Below are positions 17,881 through 47,886 of a stretch of DNA of 64,000 nt, in pieces. The notes beneath the pieces are model-generated. The model was not told the DNA's origin. It saw only the letters and a program-made list of their open reading frames with translations, and ran no database searches. The stretch's first letter is position 1; every line of letters starts with the position of its first letter. The stretch lies in assembly GCF_000317615.1 (NCBI RefSeq), contig NC_019780.1, positions 1,509,840 through 1,573,839 on the forward strand, given 5' to 3'. The translations under genes and the position numbers were made by a program. Source of the stretch: Dactylococcopsis salina PCC 8305. GTDB lineage: Bacteria; Cyanobacteriota; Cyanobacteriia; Cyanobacteriales; Rubidibacteraceae.

Positions 17881-18067
17881 GAAGTTCTGTTAAAAAAATT
17901 CCCAAAATCAATTCGGGAGTTGACAAAATTAATTCCAAACTGTAACAATAGATACAGAAATAAAGAAATCGTTCATCTCTCTGATGAGTTTAATCAAGGA
18001 GAGACGGAAGTAGGGAAACTCCCGAAGGAACGCGCCTCAACCAGATCGAATTCAAGGAGGCGAATCC

Positions 18068-25524: not shown

Positions 25525-25639
25525 CCTTTTTTCCGCTCAATTAGAAGAAGTATCAGCCCCCTAACCCCCAATCTTGGGGGAACTAGATGGCATCTCCTTT
25601 TCAGATCTGAGAAGTATCAGCCCCCTAACCCCCAATCTT

Positions 25640-25685
25640 GAGGAGCGACCCTGGCGAGGTTTCCTCGCCTAAGGAACGCGCGACG
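25640..25685 (-). repeat. Conserved-flank hairpin repeat, copy 1
   Basis: Read on the minus strand: CGTCGCGCGTTCC, then a 7-bp stem GGCGAGG / CCTCGCC with an AAA loop, then GGGTCGCTCCTC. The flanks are the same as at 40911-40956, but the stem is entirely different there. Just left of it, two copies of a unit starting AGAAGTATCAGCCCCCTAAC (25548 and 25609) form a direct repeat of about 60 bp. Confidence 0.6.
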
Positions 25686-25805
25686 GTGGGGAATTAGATG
25701 GCATCCCCTTTTCATATCTGCTTTGATCGCGTAAACTGGCAACAGTTTCGCAGTATTCATAAGGCTTTAATTTTGCCATCTTTCGTCACCAGTGGAATCG
25801 CATCT

Positions 25806-31765: not shown

Positions 31766-33428
31766 GGGTCTGCTGAAAAAGTACGCGATCGCTACCCCCT
31801 AAGCCAGCGCTTGAAAAGAACACTGCCTAAACATTAGATTTGCTTATGTTTAAGCCACTTAGAATAACGAGTAGTAATTAATAAGTCTAGTTTTCCTAAA
31901 AAAAGACAAAAAAGAAGATAATACCCCCTTGAAAATAAGGTGTTTAAATTCATTACTAGAAAGGAGATAGCAATTGCTGTTTCTGAAGTATTTGAAAGTT
32001 TTGTCATGATTAAATTTAAGCCTTCTCTTCTTTTTCCCTGACCAAATTTCCCTTCGATTTCATTTCTAATTCTTGCATCTAATTGGGCTTGTTTTTTTTC
32101 TTCTAAACTAACTGATTTCTTCGGGCGCCCCAAAGGAGGGCCACTGATTCTAATTCCTCTCTCTTTACACCACGCACGGTTTTCTCGACTTCGATAAATT
32201 TGATCGACATGAACCGATTCTGGATAATGCCCCGTATAATTTCTAAACGCTTCGACTTGTGCTTTCAAATCTTTTGATTCATTAAAGTTATCCCAACTTA
32301 AGTGGTCTAAAAACACAAAACCATCATAATAACTAGCAGAGATTTTTGCCCCGAATTCTGTATTTTGTCTAGCCTTTCCCCTTACTATTGGACGAAGATA
32401 CGGCTGAGTTAAACTCACAATCCTATCTTCAATACTGTTCTTTTTGTTATCAAACATCCCAAGTTGTTGACGGTAAATTTCTTGAACGACTAATAACAGT
32501 TGATAGTCTCTTCTTTTTAAAACAGTAAGCTCGGCTCCTAAGTTTACTAATTCATCAATATGCTTCAAGTTTCTTTTTAAATATTGTAACTGCTTTTTGA
32601 TAGCTTGAGTGCGCTTTTTTCGGGAAGGTTTTTTTTGCTTAGCAATCGCTAAATAATCCTTTCTTGCTTTTTTTCGATAAGTTCTTGGTTTGGCTTTTAA
32701 CTTTCCTTTCTGTGTTTTATAAAGTTTATCAATAACTTTTTCTGTGTGCTTTCTCGCTTCATTTAATAATCCTAAATCCGTCGGATACTTAATATCAGAA
32801 GGCGTACAAGTAGCATCGAGCATTAATTTTCCTTTATTTTTTACAGATTCACTTTCTTCTTTTTTTTTTTCTTCTTGCGGAATATTTTCCTCTTTCTCTT
32901 GTTGAACTTCAACCACTCGGCGATTAATTTCATTAATTAGTTTCGGTGTGATTCTTTTTCTAAAATGAACCAACATTGAAGAATCAAAACTCGGTTCATT
33001 TTGATAAGAATTTAAGCCGATAAAGTATTGTAAATAAGGATTTTCTCGAATTTGCTCAACCGTTTCGCGGTCGCTAATACCTAACTTTTCTTTGATAATT
33101 AAAGCTCACTTAGCCATTCTAAATTCTTTGGCTGGTGCTCCTTGATCGGGATCAAAATACTTTTCATATTCTTGTTCAAATTCTTCCCAGGGAATCATGT
33201 CAGCTAAAATGATCCACCGATTGGTACTTGACAATTGTCCCTGAAAGGGTAGTGAAAAGTCTTCTGGGGGAGTGGGTTCAGATTGTATTTTTCGATACAT
33301 TTCAGGGAATTACCAATGTTCATGCAAGGGTTTTGCTCGATTTTACCCCATTTTCTTGCAGAAGAGTCGGTTCCCAAGGAGATCAAACCCTTACAGGCGA
33401 AGGCGATCGCGCCTTTTTCAGCAAGCCC
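31766..33428 (-). mobile_element. IS5-type insertion sequence, 6-bp TSD TAATTA
   Basis: A 1663-bp element with inverted ends GGGTCTGCTGAAAAAG and CTTTTTCAGCAAGCCC, both followed inward by GCGATCGC. The target duplication TAATTA is at 31760-31765 and 33429-33434, inside the third copy of the 256-bp repeat, and the uninterrupted sequence of copies 1 and 2 (TATTAATTAAGTTTG) confirms the junctions. It encodes one transposase, inactivated by a stop codon. Family assignment rests on the DDE pattern of the transposase. Confidence 0.88.
31834..33300 (-). pseudogene. IS5/IS1182-type transposase with a premature stop
   Basis: The 488-codon frame is intact except for a TGA at 33106-33108: ...APAKEFRMAK, stop, ALIIKEKLGISDRETVEQI... 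The frame on both sides is the same, so a single nonsense mutation explains it. DDE residues: Asp in KLMLDATCTPSDI, Asp in VHVDQIYRSREN, Glu in RNEIEGKFGQGKR. The middle is a long Lys/Arg-rich helical insert. The downstream part (380 residues from ATG 32976) could in principle be translated alone but lacks the N-terminal DNA-binding part. Confidence 0.88.
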
Positions 33429-36013: not shown

Positions 36014-39000
36014 ATGGTTAAGCAATCAAACTCTAAAGTTATGACAACAACCCAAACCAAAGTAAAAAGTGCCTTCCTAGAAAGACTCCATTCCCCAGAA
36101 CGTCCAGTTCTCGTCTTCGACGGCGGTATGGGAACTTCCTTACAAAGGCAAGAATTGACCTTAGAGGACTTTGGCACTGCGGAACTCGAAGGTTGCAACG
36201 AATACCTCGTTAAATCCAAACCCGAAGCCATTGAACAAGTCCACCGCGAATTTTTAGAAGCGGGTGCTGATGTCATCGAAACCGATAGTTTCGGTTCCAG
36301 TTCTGTGGTTCTAGCGGAATATAACATTCCCGAACAAGCATACGAACTCAGCAAAATGGCATCGGAACTGGCTAAACGGGTCGCTAATGAGTATTCAACA
36401 CCAGAAAAACCCCGTTTTGTCGCTGGTGCAATGGGACCGACCACCAAACTTCCCACCCTTGCTCATATTGACTTTGACACCATGAAAGAGTCCTATCGGG
36501 TTCAAGCTGAGGGGCTTTATGATGGCGGAGCCGACTTATTTATCATCGAAACCTGTCAAGATGTGCTTCAAATTAAATCCGCTTTAAATGCAGTGGAAGA
36601 ACTGTTTGCCCAGAAAGGCGATCGCATCCCAATTATGGTTTCCATCACAATGGAAGTCATGGGAACAATGCTCGTGGGAACAGAAATTGATGCAGCGTTG
36701 ACCATTCTCGAACCCTATAACATTGACATCTTAGGACTGAACTGCGCCACCGGTCCCGACAAGATGAAAGAACATATCAAATATCTGTCGGAACACTCTC
36801 CATTTACCATTTCTTGTATTCCCAACGCAGGGCTACCAGAAAACGTCGGTGGACAAGCGCACTATAAACTAACCCCGATGGAACTCCGCATGGCGTTAAT
36901 GCACTTCGTAGAAGACTTAGGCGTGCAGGTCATTGGTGGCTGTTGTGGAACGCGACCCGACCACATTGAGCAACTAGCAGACATTGCCAAAGAACTAAAA
37001 CCTGCCGAACGTAACCCGAAAAACGAGTGCGCCGCTGCTTCCATTTACAGCACCCAGAATTACATTCAAGATAACTCCTTCCTCATTATTGGAGAGCGTC
37101 TCAACGCCAGTGGGTCGAAAAAAACCCGCACGCTTTTAAACGAAGAAGACTGGGACGGCTTAGTATCTATCGCCAAATCACAAGTTAAAGAAGGGGCGCA
37201 CGTTCTCGATGTCAACGTTGATTATGTGGGACGTGACGGTGAACGGGATATGTACGAAGTGGTTTCACGTTTGGTGAATAACGTCACCTTACCCCTAATG
37301 GTGGATTCCACCGAATGGACAAAAATGGAAGTGGGGTTAAAAACCGCAGGTGGAAAATGCCTCATTAACTCCACCAACTACGAAGATGGAGAAGAACGCT
37401 TTTTCAAAGTCTTAGAACTTGGCAAAAAATATGGTGCGGGTGTCGTCATCGGAACCATTGACGAAGACGGGATGGCACGAACAGCGCAGAAAAAATTTGA
37501 AATTGCTCAACGGGCGTACCGTCAAGCCGTAGAATCTGGCATTCCCCCCTCGGAAATTTTCTTTGACTCCCTTGCTTTACCGATTTCCACAGGAATTGAA
37601 GAAGACCGTGTGAATGGTAAAGAAACCATGGAGTCCATTCGTCTCATTCGGGAAAACTTACCAGAATGTCACGTGATGCTAGGGGTTTCTAACCTCTCCT
37701 TTGGTTTAAATTCCGCTGCCAGGGTGGCGCTCAATTCTGTGTTTCTCCATGATGCGGTAGAAGCGGGAATGGATGCGGCAATTGTCAGCGCCAGTAAAAT
37801 TGTTCCCCTTGCCAAAATTGAAAAAGAACATCAGCAGATTTGCCGTGATTTAATTTACGATAATCGTCAGTTTAATGAAGATGGCATCTGTGTTTATGAT
37901 CCCCTGACCAAGCTAACGGAAGTCTTCGCTGGGAAAAAAGCGGAAGTGGCTGCTTCTAGCATGGAAAATCTTTCCATTGAAGACAAGCTCAAACAGCACA
38001 TTATTGATGGGGAACGCATTGGCTTAAATGATGTTCTCGATGAAGCGATGAAGACTTATCCGCCGTTGGATATTATTAACAAGTATCTCCTTGATGGGAT
38101 GAAAGTGGTTGGAGAACGCTTCGGCGCTGGAGAAATGCAACTTCCTTTCGTGCTACAGTCTGCGGAAACCATGAAAGCCGCAGTGGCGCATCTAGAACCG
38201 CACATGGAAAAAGATGAGGCGGGAGATAATGCCAAAGGAACGTTCCTCATTGCCACGGTAAAAGGAGATGTTCACGATATCGGTAAGAATTTAGTGGATA
38301 TTATCCTCTCTAATAATGGCTATCGCGTGATTAACATTGGCATTAAACAGCCAGTGGATAACATTATCGCTGCCTATGAAGAGCATAATGCTGACTGTAT
38401 CGCCATGAGTGGGTTGTTGGTGAAATCAACCGCCTTTATGAAGGATAATTTGGAAACCTTCAATGAAAAAGGAATTAGTGTTCCTGTGATTCTTGGTGGG
38501 GCGGCGTTGACACCGAAATTTGTTTATGGTGATTGTCAGGAGGTTTATAACGGTAAGGTGGTTTACGGGAAAGATGCGTTTTCTGACCTTAACTTTATGG
38601 ACAAGTTAATGCCCGCGAAAGAGGCTGGACAATGGGATGATTTACAAGGCTTCTTAGGCGAGTTTGCTGAGGAAGAAGACGGAAAAGCCATTAAAGCTAA
38701 GGCGAAAGCGGAAAAAGCAGAAAGTAATGGCAAGGCGGAAACCGAAGAAAATGGCAAAGCAGAAGAACCGAAAGTTGTGGATACGACTCGTTCCGAAGCT
38801 GTGGAGGTTAATGTAGAACGTCCCACGCCGCCATTCTGGGGTTATAAGTTGCTGACTCCTGATGAGATTCCGATGGATGAGATGCTTTGGTATCTCGATA
38901 AACAGGCGCTGTTTGCGGGACAATGGCAGTTCCGCAAGAAGAAAAGTCAATCCCGAGAAGAGTATGATCAGTTTTTACAAGAGACGGTTGAGCCGATTCT

Positions 39001-39649
39001 CGCGGAGTGGAAGCAACGATCGAAAGCGGAGAATTTACTCCATCCGCAACTGATTTATGGTTATTATCCTTGTTGTTCCGAAGGAAATACCTTGTATCTG
39101 TTTGATCCAAAATTAATCGAAGAGAAAGGGACAATTCCAAAGGGGACAGAACCGATCGCAGCGTTTGAGTTCCCCCGTCAACGATCGGGACAACGCTTGT
39201 GTATCGCTGACTTCTACGCGCCGAAAGAGTCGGGAATTATTGATGTGTTCCCAATGCAAGCGGTAACAGTGGGAGAAATTGCCACCGAATACGCGAAAGA
39301 GTTGTTTGAGGCGGATCAATACACCGATTACCTCTATTTCCACGGTTTTGGGGTGCAAGCCGCTGAGGCTCTAGCAGAGTGGGGACACGCCCGCATCCGT
39401 GAGGAGTTAGGATTTGGGGATGAAGACCCCGACAATATTCGGGATGTGTTGGCGCAACGCTATCGCGGTTCTCGTTACAGTTTCGGTTATCCTGCTTGTC
39501 CGAACATTAACGATCAATACAAACTTCTCGATCTGTTAGAGACGAAACAAATTAATCTCTACATGGACGAAAGTGAGCAAATCTATCCCGAACAATCGAC
39601 CACCGCGATCGTGTCTCATCACCCGATCGCCCGTTACTTCAGCGCATAA
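36014..39649 (+). CDS. metH: Cobalamin-dependent methionine synthase
   Basis: Transfers a methyl group from methyltetrahydrofolate to homocysteine through cobalamin; 1211 residues. Domain order: homocysteine domain ([11 protein letters not shown]; zinc Cys in LGLNCATGP and the GGCCGT pair near residue 310), pterin domain ([22 protein letters not shown]), cobalamin cap and binding domain with DVHDIGKN (about residue 753, His is the lower Co ligand), and the C-terminal reactivation domain ([11 protein letters not shown]). A Lys/Glu/Ala-rich linker ([16 protein letters not shown]) separates the last two. ATG 36014 or 36041 may be the start. The upstream leader (35889-36013) has a TATAAT at 35964 but is too short for a full cobalamin riboswitch. 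Confidence 0.95.
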
Positions 39650-40806: not shown

Positions 40807-40910
40807 GATGCACTTTGAGCAAAGCTCTTTGCTTATTACAATATGAACTACTCGCAATCCGCCTTCGGCTGAGATTGCGGTTTCTGACGCTTCCTTGCGG
40901 ATTCCCGCAT

Positions 40911-40956
40911 CGTCGCGCGTTCCCTAGCGCCGTAAGACGGCGCGGGGTCGCTCCTC
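40911..40956 (+). repeat. Conserved-flank hairpin repeat, copy 2
   Basis: CGTCGCGCGTTCC, then a 7-bp stem GCGCCGT / ACGGCGC with an AAG loop (40927-40943), then GGGTCGCTCCTC. The flanks match 25640-25685 on the opposite strand; the stem does not. It lies in a hairpin cluster (40812-41070) that also contains AGCAAAGCTCTTTGCT, CGCAATC/GATTGCG and CTCAAG/CTTGAG stems. Confidence 0.6.
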
Positions 40957-41081
40957 TTTTTCGCCCCTAGTTGCGCCATGCTTCCGCATGACGTAGAGCT
41001 AGATGACTCTGCGTCTGACGAGGCACGTCCCGTACCCCGTAACGCTGCCTCAAGCATAACTTGAGCCGCGTTAATAATTAA

Positions 41082-43437
41082 AGTCAGTGAAGAGGTCGCC
41101 CCCTCCACTGCTCTCCAAAACGGTACGTGAGACTTTCACCTCATACCGCTCCTCAGTTAAACGGCTGTTGTCATCAGCACGTCACCAGCATATCGTTTTC
41201 CCATCGGTAATCCTCTGGGATAATGGAAACCACTCGATTGTAGCTCCCATCCGTTCTGGTCTTTTCATCGTGGCAGTGTCGATGGAGCAGTTGCCAGTTT
41301 TTATATTCATCCTTACCACCTTTAGAGTAGGGGACGATATGGTCAACCTCTAATAAGTCTCCATCTCGGAAAAACAATCCGCAGTGAGCGCATTTCCCTT
41401 TCTGCTTCTTGAGCAACGATGCTGTTCGCTTAGGCATCTCAGGGTGTTTGCCCATTCTTGAACTCCAATAGATTAGGTCGCCGTCATAGGGGCTTTTATC
41501 TCCCTTAACTTTGACATGGCGGATGATTGCTGTTCGTGAGTGCTTCATTAGCACCATAGGATTAGACCCTTCACGAGGAGTAGCAAACGCCCATTTATCG
41601 CCACCTATCCTTCGGAAGTATTTGGATTTTACCCACTTTCTCCCTTTGTTTCGATGACGTTTTATACCCCATTTGAATAGTTTCCAGAAAATCAGATAAT
41701 CTAGTCTTGAGAAGACCTTTTGACTTACTCCTATAGAGAAGTAATTACACCAACCTCTGATTATGGGATTAAGTTTAGCAATCAGAACAGCTTGAGACTG
41801 TCCTTTATACTTATCTATTACCTCACATATCTTCTGATAGTGCCTTTCTTGACTTTCCTTACTAGGGGTGGTGAGCGTTTTGAATCCCAGAATCTGACCT
41901 TTTGAATCCCTTCCTGATGTATATTTACCCACCTTGTATTGGCGGATATTAAAGCCTAAGAAGTTAAATCCTGCTTTTTCTTCTTTATGATTTTCAAGGG
42001 TGTGGGCGATTCTAGTTTTACTCGGTTTTAATTCTAAACCCATGTCCGCCAACCATTCTGTGACAACCTCTTTACATCTATGAACAACGGCTAGATCTTT
42101 ATGTAAGATTACAAAATCATCCGCATATCGGATTATACTAACAGAATCTTTTTTATCCCTTAATGGTAATTGATATCCATTTGGACGTTTCATATCAAAA
42201 CTGCCAGCAATAGATTTAATCTTATCTTCCATACCGTGTAGTGCGATATTAGCCAATAGTGGAGATACGACCCCACCTTGTGGCGTACCCTCAAACGTTG
42301 GTGAAAACTCCTTGCCTTCCATTACCCCTGACTTGAGCCACGCTCGGATTTGCCTCCGAAACGTGGGGAAGGTATTTAATTTATTCAGAAGTCTCTCGTG
42401 GTCGATACGGTCGAAACATTTAGATATATCCGCATCAAGCACGTATTTAGGTTTGTACCGAATAGCGTCGAAAATTGCCCGTATGGCATCATGGGCTGAA
42501 CGTCCTGCTCGAAACCCGTAAGAATTTGGCTCGAAAACCGCCTCCCATTCAGGTTCTAAGGCTAGTTTTACTAACGCTTGTAGCGCACGGTCATACATGG
42601 TAGGTATTCCCAAAGGTCTTTCCTCCCCATTAGGCTTCGGAATCTTAACCCTCCGAGTTGGTTTAACCTTTGAACTCAGTTTCAGATTATTTACGAGCTT
42701 CATACGTGCTACTGGGGACAAGGATTTAACCCCATCCACTCCCGCCGTCTTTTTGCCCTGATTATCCTGTGTAACTCTACGCACCGCTAAAACCTTAGCC
42801 GACCAAGACTTTACTAACAATTTCTGGAGTCTGCGAACTGCTTTGACATCACCACGACGAGACGCTTTGTAGATGCGCTTTTGGAGCTTATAGACGACTC
42901 TCTCGACCTCATGCCAATCGATATCGCCCCATTTAATACATCGGTTGTCCGTGTTCATAACTTATGTACTCACTACTTGTACCTCTACAATCCATCTAAC
43001 CGTGAGTCCGTCAGCGTATCCTTGCCATTACAGCAAGTCGTTTGCTTCTGACTCAATCTTCCTCCCCCGCTACCTACCAAATGGGGTAGATTTTGCGTCT
43101 AAGCTGACTACTCAACTCATCGACCAGAATTGAGAGTAAACGAGGGAGTTACTTCGTTCCCTGCGACCTTTGGTTTGTCTCCTTTAGGAGGGATACTCTT
43201 CACCGAGTTTGAGGGTGGCACTGACAAATAGATGCGAATCCTCTTGTCACCCCAACTATTGCCCTTTTGGGACTCCCAGAGTAGTCAACCTGATTTCTCT
43301 GGTTAGAAGTCACGATGATTCAATCGTATCCTTAGACCTTGTTCCCCATAGAGACTTGCTAACGGGATTGGGACACAGGCTGTCCTTTCTCTTTCCGCTT
43401 CTATTCCCGCTTTACGGATTGATGGCTAGTCGCTACC
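41082..43437 (-). mobile_element. Group II intron 1
   Basis: The ribozyme frame is visible on the minus strand. Domain V is at about 41119-41150 (AGCGGTATGAGGTGAAAG then TCTCACGTACCGTT), domain VI is the AGTGGAGG...CCTCTTCACT hairpin at about 41084-41108, and the 3' end is near 41082. The 5' end is put near 43436, where GTAGCGACTAGCC could be a variant of the usual GTGCGAC; this is tentative. It carries a complete maturase ORF in domain IV. Its 5' end almost touches the 3' end of intron 2. Confidence 0.8.
41174..42958 (-). CDS. ltrA: Group II intron reverse transcriptase/maturase with HNH
   Basis: A 594-residue intron-encoded protein, complete. Reverse transcriptase blocks: PLGIPTMYDRALQALVKLAL, SYGFRAGRSAHDAI, VLDADISKCFDRI, GTPQGGVVSPLLANI, and the catalytic IIRYADDFVI. 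The maturase X domain follows (about 330-440: KLNPIIRGWCNYF). The C-terminus holds an HNH nuclease with two Cys pairs and the signature LEVDHIVPYSKGG...LLHRHCHDEKT. All active-site residues are present, so the protein could support splicing and mobility. It is related to but clearly distinct from the protein of intron 2. Confidence 0.93.
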   Translation of the reverse strand: MNTDNRCIKWGDIDWHEVERVVYKLQKRIYKASRRGDVKAVRRLQKLLVKSWSAKVLAVRRVTQDNQGKKTAGVDGVKSLSPVARMKLVNNLKLSSKVKPTRRVKIPKPNGEERPLGIPTMYDRALQALVKLALEPEWEAVFEPNSYGFRAGRSAHDAIRAIFDAIRYKPKYVLDADISKCFDRIDHERLLNKLNTFPTFRRQIRAWLKSGVMEGKEFSPTFEGTPQGGVVSPLLANIALHGMEDKIKSIAGSFDMKRPNGYQLPLRDKKDSVSIIRYADDFVILHKDLAVVHRCKEVVTEWLADMGLELKPSKTRIAHTLENHKEEKAGFNFLGFNIRQYKVGKYTSGRDSKGQILGFKTLTTPSKESQERHYQKICEVIDKYKGQSQAVLIAKLNPIIRGWCNYFSIGVSQKVFSRLDYLIFWKLFKWGIKRHRNKGRKWVKSKYFRRIGGDKWAFATPREGSNPMVLMKHSRTAIIRHVKVKGDKSPYDGDLIYWSSRMGKHPEMPKRTASLLKKQKGKCAHCGLFFRDGDLLEVDHIVPYSKGGKDEYKNWQLLHRHCHDEKTRTDGSYNRVVSIIPEDYRWENDMLVTC

Positions 43438-43447
43438 GTAGGGGTTA

Positions 43448-45930
43448 ACCTAAGCCAAGAGGTCGCCCTCTTGACTCGGCTTCAGAACGGTACGTGAAAC
43501 TTTCGCTTCATACCGCTCCTCTCCAAACTACGCTGTGTTAACAGCACTTCCCTGCTTAGTTTCCGATTTACGACCTTTCTTGGTTTTCTTTTGGGTTTTC
43601 TTTTGACCCTTATTATCCATTTGTCGTTGTCGGTCTTCGGCAGTTTTTTGATGGTGACAATGACGATGGAGTAACTGTAAGTTCTTGTAGTCATCTCTAC
43701 CCCCTTCAGCTTTGGGGATGATGTGGTCAACTTCTTCTACATCTCCATCCTTAAAGTAAAGTCCACAACGGGTACATTTGCCTTTCTGGCGCTTCATCAG
43801 AGTAGCAACCCGTTTTGGTGTGCCAGGATATTCACCCCGACGTTTACTCCAGTACCGCCAGTCTCCATCGTAAGGAGACCTCGTACCCTCGATTTTTATA
43901 TGTCTTTCAATTGGTGTCCATGCGTGTTTCCACAGTTCGTGCGTACCCGCAACAGGAGAGTTTGGTACATCGGAAGGAGTTGAAAAGACCCATTTTGCGT
44001 TTCTCTTTTCTCCATCTAAATTTTTCTCCTTAGTCAAATGAAAGTATCTTTCTTCACACCATTTGAGGGTTTTATTAGGATGACGGCGTTTTGTCCAGCG
44101 ACGTAATTTGTTATAGACTGAGTTGTCTATGTGTTGGAACGTTTCTTTCGAGCAGACTGTTTTGTGATAGTTGCACCAACCCATGATGATGGGATTAAGT
44201 TTATCAATGATTACCTCTTGGGATTTACCTTTCATTGAATCTAATACTTCAACAATCTTTTCGTAATGTGTTTTGATACTCTTGTCGCTAGGTTTAATTA
44301 TTGTTTTGAATCCGAGTAAATTGCCATTTGTGTTTTTTCCTGAGTGTCTCTTCCCGACCTTATATTGTCGGACGTTCCACCCTAGAAAGTCGAACCCTGC
44401 TTTCGTTTCTTCCGTATCATGCAAGGTATGGCAAATTCTCGTCTTGCTCTCGCTTATTTCTAAGCCTAAGCCATGTAACCACTGTTCAATAAGCGTTTTC
44501 GCCTGTTGGATGATGGATTTATCCTTGTGGAGAACAACGAAATCATCTGCATACCTGATAAGAGAGATACTTTTAATATTAGTTTGTTTTTTCCCTTTCC
44601 AAGTTTCAGTCCATTGTTTTATGTACTCTTCAAGTCCATGCAGGGCGATGTTTGCCAATAGAGGACTTATCACCCCTCCTTGTGGTGTTCCCTCATTTGT
44701 TGGAAACCAATCGCCTCTATCCAATACCCCCGATTTCAACCAAGCTCGAATTTGTCGAGCCATAGTCGGGGTTGTATTCAGTTTTTGTAAGAGAACATTG
44801 TGATTTATGCGGTCGAAGCATTTTGAAATGTCAGCATCTAAAACCCATTTGGATTTTTGTTTGATAGCCGAATATATTGCTCCGCACGCATCATGGCAAG
44901 AACGTCCTGGTCTGAATCCGTATGAGTTAGGCTCGAATTTTGCTTCCCATTCTGGTTCTAAAGCCAATTTGAGAAGTGCTTGCCTCGCACGGTCTTCCAT
45001 TACTGGAATACCCAAGCCACGTTTTTCTTTGCGACCTGGTTTTGGAATCCAGACCCGTCTTAAGGATTTCCCCTTCCCTGTAAGGGTCAGGTTTTCAGCA
45101 AGGCTCAACCGTTGTTTAGGACTTAGGCTTTTCACCCCATCTATCCCTGCGGTATTTTTACCTTGGTTATCCTGCGAAATGCGCCGTACTGCTAAGAGCT
45201 TGGCACACCAAGACCGTAACAATAATCTTTGGAGTTTGTGAACTTTAGCCACGTCACCACTTTGAGAAGCTCGATAAATCCGCTTTTGGAGCTTAAACAC
45301 CCGTATTTCAACCTCCTTCCAGTCAATCTGACTCCACTCCGTCTCTGCCATGAGATTAAACCCAAAGCCTAACCAGAGCATTAAAAAGGTCTTTGTCCGA
45401 GCATCACATTTATACCTGATTTGGTTCATAACTTTACTCTACTTTACTTATTATCTTCGTAATCTAAAGTGGATACGTCTGCTTGTCCTTCCTGTTACAG
45501 AAGGCGTTTGCTTCTTATCCAATCCCGCCCTCGCTCAACCCAGCAAATGAGCCAGATATTGCATCCCGACAGACTACTTGAGAAATCGACCTTTCCCAAG
45601 AGTATGAACGAGGGTTACTTCGTTCCTAATTTCCATTGATTGAGACCTTAGCCCCCTACTCTCCACCGCACAAATTTGGAGATGTGATATAAGCTATACT
45701 AAACTTCTATCCTCTTGTGGTGAGCATATTTCGCTCCCTGCGATCAGCCTTTACGCAGGATTGAAATTACGATGGTTCAAACGTAGGTTCGTTGACTAGA
45801 CGTAGCCTCTTGCTAGGGATTTACCAGATTAGGCTTCCAGCAGTGACCCCATTTAACCCTGCTTCATCCTCAAGTGGTCAACTCTATAGATGAGGGTTAC
45901 GCTGTCCTCTCACACCCTGAGAGGGATGGA
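43448..45930 (-). mobile_element. Group II intron 2
   Basis: Domain V is at about 43485-43518 (AGCGGTATGAAGCGAAAG then TTTCACGTACCGTTC), and domain VI is the GAGTCAAGAGG...CCTCTTGGCTTA hairpin at 43449-43480, with the 3' end near 43448. The domain I part lies upstream of the ORF (45430 to about 45930); its CCTAGCAAG and TACGTTTGAACCATCGTAAT stretches align with CGTTAGCAAG and TACGATTGAATCATCGTGAC of intron 1. The 5' end is not pinned down: GTGTGAGAGG (about 45932) is a candidate. Confidence 0.75.
43528..45351 (-). CDS. ltrA: Group II intron reverse transcriptase/maturase with HNH
   Basis: A 607-residue protein from the ATG at 45351 (MAETEWSQIDWKEVE); the open frame reaches back to 45429 but that part lies in intron RNA. 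Reverse transcriptase motifs: GLGIPVMEDRARQALLKLAL, SYGFRPGRSCHDAC, VLDADISKCFDRI, GTPQGGVISPLLANI, LIRYADDFVV. The X domain has KLNPIIMGWCNYH. The HNH domain is CTRCGLYFKDGDVEEVDHII...LLHRHCHHQKT. A basic tail (KKTQKKTKKGRKSETK) extends past the family norm. Complete and probably active by sequence. It shares the same layout as the intron 1 protein. Confidence 0.93.
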   Translation of the reverse strand: MAETEWSQIDWKEVEIRVFKLQKRIYRASQSGDVAKVHKLQRLLLRSWCAKLLAVRRISQDNQGKNTAGIDGVKSLSPKQRLSLAENLTLTGKGKSLRRVWIPKPGRKEKRGLGIPVMEDRARQALLKLALEPEWEAKFEPNSYGFRPGRSCHDACGAIYSAIKQKSKWVLDADISKCFDRINHNVLLQKLNTTPTMARQIRAWLKSGVLDRGDWFPTNEGTPQGGVISPLLANIALHGLEEYIKQWTETWKGKKQTNIKSISLIRYADDFVVLHKDKSIIQQAKTLIEQWLHGLGLEISESKTRICHTLHDTEETKAGFDFLGWNVRQYKVGKRHSGKNTNGNLLGFKTIIKPSDKSIKTHYEKIVEVLDSMKGKSQEVIIDKLNPIIMGWCNYHKTVCSKETFQHIDNSVYNKLRRWTKRRHPNKTLKWCEERYFHLTKEKNLDGEKRNAKWVFSTPSDVPNSPVAGTHELWKHAWTPIERHIKIEGTRSPYDGDWRYWSKRRGEYPGTPKRVATLMKRQKGKCTRCGLYFKDGDVEEVDHIIPKAEGGRDDYKNLQLLHRHCHHQKTAEDRQRQMDNKGQKKTQKKTKKGRKSETKQGSAVNTA

Positions 45931-47469: not shown

Positions 47470-47886
47470 GTGTCAATCAAACCAAGAAAGGGTTCTCATA
47501 GCGTTTTTAGCGTGCGACTGCACTTTGTTTTTGTTACCCACTATAGAAGAAAGATAATAACAGCACAAATGTTAGAACGACTTCGAGAGATGAGTTGGCA
47601 GGTTTGTAAGAAGATGGATTGTGAGTTGATTGAAATGTCTGGAGAATCAGATCACGTACATCTCTTGGTTGATTTCCATCCAAGAAACTCGATATCTGCT
47701 GTAGCAGGGTCTCTGAAGTCATCCACTAGCAGAGCAATGAAAAAAGATTTCCCAGAACAAGTAAGGCGATTTTATAAGGAGGGAATATCTTTTTGGTCTA
47801 AGTCCTATTATGTTGCATCTTCTGGAGGTGCGCCTATTGAGAAGTTAAAAGACTACATTAAAGCACAAAATGAACCAAAACTTTAG
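47470..47886 (+). CDS. tnpA: IS200/IS605 transposase TnpA (Y1 HUH)
   Basis: A 138-residue single-strand transposase. The HUH motif is in SDHVHLLVDF and the catalytic Tyr in WSKSYYVASSGGAPIEKLKDYI; the first strand HFVFVTHYRRKII is typical. The GTG at 47470 is the start. It appears intact and could mobilise this element and related hairpin-ended copies (58.9 kb, perhaps 39.8 kb). Divergent from tnpB. Confidence 0.92.
   Translation: MSIKPRKGSHSVFSVRLHFVFVTHYRRKIITAQMLERLREMSWQVCKKMDCELIEMSGESDHVHLLVDFHPRNSISAVAGSLKSSTSRAMKKDFPEQVRRFYKEGISFWSKSYYVASSGGAPIEKLKDYIKAQNEPKL

Follow-up and report, generated by a model that had tools for sequence, protein, structure and literature searches.

The SDRs of Nostoc are reportedly very small mobile repeats of cyanobacteria, some of which have a shared secondary structure with compensatory changes and lie nested in other repeats; SDR4, SDR5, and SDR6 reportedly measure 21–27 nt and have one secondary structure in common. 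SDR5 sits inside HIP1 (PMC4390886). REPINs, or REP doublets, are composed of two inverted REPs and are tied to a RAYT gene (Bertels and Rainey 2011, PMC3116915). As described by Di Nocera and coworkers (2013, PMC3733652), the CGTC-tagged REPs have stems of 8–9 bp that start with A-T pairs, loops of 4–5 nt, and CCA tails, and CGTC-type ends include TGTC and CCTC. The Results of that paper give five phyla for the CGTC repeats, cyanobacteria not among them, whereas the abstract mentions cyanobacteria and planctomycetes for both super-families; GTAG-12, GTAG-15, and GTAG-16 are the cyanobacterial GTAG families. Hairpins can also be shaped by polymerases. Stems maintained by template switching are described in PMC8794818, and PMC8604942 attributes arm homogenisation and spacer inversion to polymerase template switching, in arms longer than 9 bp only.

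The window analyzed here, a 64,000-nucleotide stretch of the Dactylococcopsis salina PCC 8305 genome, contains two members of a dispersed hairpin repeat of about 46–51 bp. The kind, a REP- or SDR-like hairpin repeat, is already known; a description of the family was not found in the literature searched, and part of the family may be named among the small dispersed repeats (SDRs) of Nostoc in Elhai et al. 2008. The family shares conserved flanking sequence, dispersal, and a non-autonomous character with the REPINs (PMC3116915), but it has one hairpin, the ends of which are unequal in most of the subfamilies read, in place of an inverted REP pair with its RAYT gene. No linked RAYT was present in the loci searched (30 Y1 and nine other loci). 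The length of 46–51 nt differs from the 21–27 nt reported for the Nostoc SDRs, which were compared with the family by description, and a HIP1 setting such as that of SDR5 was not noticed at the family sites listed. Short hairpins and intragenic copies are common to the family and to the CGTC- and GTAG-tagged REPs (PMC3733652), and a tag at one end may be. The unpaired end is CGTC in most copies from the window genus, CCTC in another subfamily, and ACTC and TGGT in others. The stem, loop, and tail of the CGTC-tagged REPs differ from those found here, which are a 7-bp stem with a Y-R pair and a bulge, a loop of mostly 3 nt, and a tail of TCCTC or TCGTC. GTAG at the hairpin end was not seen among the listed copies when both strands were inspected by eye.

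The first copy has a length of 46 bp, occupies positions 40911–40956 on the plus strand, and was identified by a genome pattern search and a covariance model. It can be divided into a fixed left flank CGTCGCGCGTTCC (40911–40923), a C followed by the two-base bulge TA (40924–40926), a free stem GCGCCGT with the loop AAG and the second arm ACGGCGC (40927–40943), and a G followed by the fixed right flank GGGTCGCTCCTC (40944–40956). The free stem was delimited by folding, alignment, and a covariation count. The C pairs with the G at position 40944 and covaries with a T-A pair elsewhere. GCGTTCC, within CGTCGCGCGTTCC, pairs imperfectly with GGGTCGC, with one T.T mismatch and one T.G. The dinucleotide AT precedes the element in most of the window-genus copies read and may be part of it. 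The second copy, at positions 25640–25685, is on the minus strand and has the stem GGCGAGG/CCTCGCC with the loop AAA, the bulge TA, and a T-A closing pair. Both copies are thus as an earlier note, made from the sequence alone, had described them: the 13 bases of CGTCGCGCGTTCC and the 12 bases of GGGTCGCTCCTC are identical between them, and all seven pairs are perfect in each of the two different stems. The note had overlooked two features: the bases that adjoin the two flanks on the inside change in concert, C..G versus T..A, and the two-base bulge TA is kept in both copies.

In the window genome, a single contig of 3,781,008 bases, the exact flank pair at a spacing of 10–40 nt has three matches and the backward-read pattern has none. 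In a fourth copy, each of the flanks contains one mismatch, and a covariance-model search with E-values up to 10 returned the same four copies. The comparison of stems at all genomic flank matches, which the note had proposed, yields three stems among the four copies, the third being GCGGAAC, present in the other two copies with the loops CCGC and CAA. Inside the window, the right flank alone has four matches with up to two mismatches versus 3.10 expected, which is not significant, and the left flank alone has three versus 0.55 expected, a weak excess that was equalled in 3 of 100 shuffles. It is the pair of flanks, and not either flank singly, that is beyond chance.

The family extends beyond this genome. 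The pattern of CGTCGCGCGTTCC and GGGTCGCTCC separated by 10–40 nt is present in four of the six genomes of the genus, and that of CGCGCGTTCC and GGGTCGCTCC with the same spacing in four of nine genomes of the family and five of 388 of the order. At E-values up to 0.01, 81 of the 388 order genomes, from 35 of the 149 genera, contain matches to the covariance model R1; this order-wide search used stricter filters and scored 16 candidates per genome, so that its copy numbers are lower bounds. GCGTTCC followed after 17–28 nt by GGGTCGC occurs in 259 copies in seven genomes, where the backward-read pattern has no match, and in 238 copies in 16 further genomes, where the backward-read pattern has two. 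The exact pattern was present in 55 stretches of a wider contig collection, from which the genome of the window is possibly absent; two are in records with a cyanobacterial title or genus name (L076 and L097), and the remaining stretches were taken as chance from the record titles. An identical 46-mer with ACTCGCG, the stem GCGCCGT, and the loop GCG is shared by L118, L119, L121, and L124, from four genomes of three families. Further outer arms are ACTCGCG and CCTCGCG, each with CGCTCGTC, TGGTGCG with CGCACCGC, AGGTGCG with CGCACCTC, CGTCGGG with CCCTCCTC, and CGGAGCG with CGCTCCTC, as well as GGTCAG..CTGACC and GGTGAG..CTCACC. The outer arms therefore covary between subfamilies too. Copies nested within other copies of the same family are found in L153 and L187 (genomes G124 and G279).

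The structure of the hairpin is based on an alignment of 11 copies from five genomes and two genera, with DNA folds for four of the copies and RNA folds for three. From the outside inwards, the fold is formed by GCG paired with CGC, the T.T mismatch, the T.G, CC paired with GG, the Y-R pair, and the two-base bulge on the 5' side; above the bulge, a stem of 7 bp, or 6 bp in the copy from Xenococcus, is closed by a loop of 3–4 bases. The DNA folds are only moderately better than those of shuffled sequences (as good a fold is reached by 19, 6, 4, and 11 of 200 shuffles). In the 11 copies, 98.1% of the 154 cells pair, versus a shuffled mean of 81.2% and 39.0–52.6% for slid controls; the structure was derived from the same 11 sequences, and the slid control is favored by construction. 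Seven of the 14 pairs have changes on both sides, a number reached by 5 of 500 shuffles. The typed set comprises 288 cores of 35 nt, of which 138 are from the seven-genome set, nine from the window genus, and 141 from the 16-genome set, the two larger groups being drawn from 150 listed copies of the 259 and 150 of the 238. Six or seven of the seven stem positions pair in 229 of the 288 cores, which contain 43 distinct perfect stems. The note had offered two alternatives, a selected structure or an exchanged cassette such as a nested palindrome, and the first of these stands on the pairing in both sets. The remaining 59 cores misfit the 7-bp stem; of the 38 of them that were listed, 32 belong by eye to a second type, GCGYC..GRCGC, which has a shorter stem. 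The base GCGTTCC...GGGTCGC is fixed in sequence within the main subfamilies; its invariance among the typed copies is built in because they were selected by an exact base match. Other bases, GGTGCG, CGTCGGG, and GGTCAG, also exist.

We consider it probable that the family is a small mobile repeat, an imperfect hairpin with a fixed base, the paired stem of which changes stepwise and in part by template switching. The element would be a very small DNA repeat of about 46–51 bp, mobile or mobilized, with a single imperfect hairpin as its fold. The lower part of the hairpin, which includes the outer arms, GCGTTCC..GGGTCGC with the kept mismatch, the Y-R pair, and the bulge, is conserved in sequence inside a subfamily, presumably as the recognition site of some protein or process; the fixed base with its kept mismatch and bulge argues for recognition of both shape and sequence there. 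The upper part, the 7-bp helix and short loop, would mainly have to pair. Its stem probably changes mostly one pair at a time, and the second arm may then be made to match by selection for pairing or, alternatively, by DNA template switching, a single event that would copy one arm onto the other and could flip the loop.

Homologous sites exist with and without the element, and two of the empty ones are in the window. An element-free duplicate of the surroundings of copy 2 is located at 25536–25607, with the junction at approximately 25575/25576, and in comparison with this empty site copy 2 represents a net gain of 47 nt. Three filled sites in G001 and G004, genomes of the window genus, have their empty homologue at window positions 31905–32205 (junction at approximately 32055/32056), within a DDE-transposase gene (31834–32976, minus strand; Pfam DDE_Tnp_1_2). 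Additional filled and empty pairs, some of which rest on short or diverged flank matches, are L113/L215, L148/L149, L162/L176, L177/L121, L177/L124, L202/L191, and L202/L201. The net insertion is approximately 46–48 nt for CGCG-type copies and 51 nt for the TTGGTGCG-type. An exact target duplication was considered and rejected, since no duplication was constant across the filled and empty comparisons. The intergenic unit at window positions 25546–25700, which contains the motif CCCCCTAACCCCCAATCTTGGGGG, is tandemly duplicated, and elsewhere (L001, L007, L128, and L146) the hairpin is likewise found in variants of this motif.

Several individual sites look like insertions into the loop of another hairpin. 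Such insertion is not the rule, as the joined flanks form 5.16 spanning pairs at 68 sites and 5.10 at 1946 control points; the 69 sites collected include L061, which is acidobacterial and probably a chance match, and which enters the site counts where its flanks sufficed. Insertion in frame is not the rule either, and is avoided overall: stop-free frames are present in 22 of 66 elements versus 1125 of 1858 nearby control windows. Copies that leave the frame open are found in G279 inside the genes for Uma2 (L218) and tnpB (L221), each with approximately 17 extra codons by eye. The palindromic elements of Rickettsia are comparable in-gene insertions that leave the reading frame open. The family marks small insertions in cyanobacteria, some of them inside genes with an open frame.

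The identity of the mover is a separate matter, and the following proposal is compatible with the preferred account. It is possible, though we regard it as doubtful, that the element is of the REP type and is moved by a Y1 tyrosine transposase (IS200/IS605 or RAYT), with the hairpin as the substrate. Y1_Tnp matches are present in all 16 genomes examined, and elements of the Y1 transposase family typically have imperfect, bulged hairpins and insert without a clear target duplication. However, the whole window genome has one Y1_Tnp match, at 47500–47868 on the plus strand, and its locus (L199) contains no R1 match. Among 39 loci, 30 of them Y1 loci taken from more than 150 Y1 matches and nine of them others, an R1 match with an E-value up to 1 occurs in ten, and no Y1 gene has matches to both its left and its right. 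The surroundings of the matches were read in nine of the ten loci; the tenth, L223, had been taken for its hairpin copy. The lack of a visible GTAG tag also speaks against such a mover.

The loops of the 181 distinct copies of type I are AAA in 65, GAA in 20, AAG in 16, TTT in 12, and others in the rest, and one loop, TTA, mixes A and T. For eight of the 11 TTT cores there is a twin in which AAA is the sole difference. The footprint of a template switch, a loop replaced by its reverse complement with the rest unchanged, is thus present in the TTT/AAA twins and in two pairs at matching sites. L175 in G216 has AAA and L179 in G279 has TTT within 46 bases that are otherwise identical, and their flanks are 91% identical over 120 bases and 93% over 41 bases; a third homologue of this site, L150 in G161, has the loop CAA. 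L170 and L185, both in a repeated context of G216, differ by AAA/TTT in an otherwise identical 46-mer, with flanks 91% identical over 35 and 96% over 26 bases. Among the 63 non-homopolymer loops, reverse-complement twins were found for four, plain reversed twins for eight, and complement-only twins for none, and since reversed twins outnumber reverse-complement twins, this sub-test fails to single out inversion. Arm homogenisation, one-step compensatory changes, and spacer inversion are features that the family would share with the template-switch hairpins of PMC8794818 and PMC8604942. The hairpins in those papers are from RNA genes and yeast genes, whereas here they are the many copies of a mobile repeat, and the perfect arm of 7 bp compares with arms of more than 9 bp in PMC8604942. 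Given the AAA/TTT loop twins, at least some of the changes are likely to have arisen by template switching.

The twins also speak against selection alone, by which the hairpin would act as RNA or single-stranded DNA and would be maintained by point mutations and compensating mutations without template switching. They occur in several stems, twice at matching sites, while A/T-mixed loops are limited to the one copy in 181. Selection at the RNA level would be expected to tolerate G-U, yet G.T or T.G pairs account for 3 of 1267, and C.A or A.C, which are G.U on the other strand, for 9 of 1267, five of these nine being the same stem pair. Single-mismatch copies, as expected from point mutation, do exist (18 of the 181 distinct copies), and some selection for shape is needed in any case, because the copying of arms would tend to erase the bulge and the fixed T.T mismatch, both of which are kept. 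On this evidence, we find selection alone unlikely.

The stems themselves bear on the second alternative of the note, that the stem-loop is an independent small palindrome inserted into, or swapped between, copies of the flanking repeat. Among the 32 distinct perfect stems of the seven-genome set and the genus copies, 31 have a neighbor that differs by one base pair. The mean distance to the nearest stem is 1.03, versus 1.34 (sd 0.09) after column shuffling, and none of 500 shuffles is as low. Seven of the 18 single-mismatch copies bridge two stems that are both found in perfect form, in five cases GCGCCGT and GCGTCGT. The network of single-pair steps and these intermediates favor stepwise, pair-preserving change over the exchange of cassettes, and we read the stems as descending mostly by single-pair steps. 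The Y-R pair is CG in 105, TA in 74, and CA in two of the 181 distinct copies. Stem type is associated with the Y-R pair and with the bulge (0 of 500 permutations each) and with the genome (3 of 500), and is not associated with the loop in the seven-genome set and the genus copies (118 of 500). The core has the same length in 138 of the 150 listed copies of the seven-genome set, whereas nested insertion would vary it.

Other observations are those that cassette exchange would explain. The same stem is found with several different outer arms, and the stem-loop GCGGAGGAAACCTCCGC also occurs in an unrelated repeat (in six of 30 contexts read by eye, from 56 matches). L187 has one hairpin within the upper portion of a second one. 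In the related genome G004 (L160), the place of copy 1 is taken by a very different family member, with flanks that are 96% identical over 68 and 93% over 115 bases. L202 in G124 and the second hairpin of L221 in G279, at a tnpB site, have by eye similar flanks and the same outer arms around unrelated stems. Of the two alternatives of the note, the selected structure is supported and the exchanged cassette less well so. The two sites with quite different members between the same flanks reflect either two insertions at one point, replacement of the stem, or deep divergence in place, and no other evidence weighs more heavily against a purely stepwise account. Since the member that differs at the 40911 site also has other outer arms and another base, it is either a diverged copy or a different element as a whole. 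On this evidence, the exchange of cassettes is quite improbable. It seems to us very unlikely that the loop flips and arm copying are by-products of the element's own movement and not random accidents of replication; the stem would then be rewritten by transposition itself, since in each move a single strand would fold and its hairpin be opened or copied, which could homogenize the arms and invert the loop.

With their fixed base and changing stem, the hundreds of copies amount to an experiment of nature on the upkeep of pairing in hairpins. The family would allow one-pair changes, arm copying, and loop flips to be counted at homologous sites.

Other elements were observed in the course of the analysis. 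The arrangement CTTTCAAGGT-GCGGAGGAAACCTCCGC-ACACAGCCCCTC and its variants constitute a different repeat in G000 and G002 (L158, L159, L167, L173, L178, and L183), which may, as a guess, be an IS605-type end. A divergent tnpB-like gene is, by eye, seemingly located beside the Y1_Tnp match at 47500–47868. Copy 1 is surrounded by a context of approximately 180 bases (window 40880–40910; L160 positions 1391–1665) that is 93–96% identical in G004, and the longer context includes other small hairpins such as GCGGATTCCCGC. Two group II introns lie close together beyond the methionine synthase gene (36014–39649), with matches at 41077–41154 and 43444–43521 (minus strand) and their reverse-transcriptase/maturase/HNH proteins at 41174–42958 and 43528–45429. 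A link between the hairpin and these introns was rejected on the two window copies: copy 1 is beyond an intron 3' end, but there is no intron match near copy 2. Rfam at the gathering threshold has five matches in the window, none at copy 1 or copy 2. A glutamine riboswitch (RF01739) is located at positions 17968–18036 with a score of 60.8 bits.
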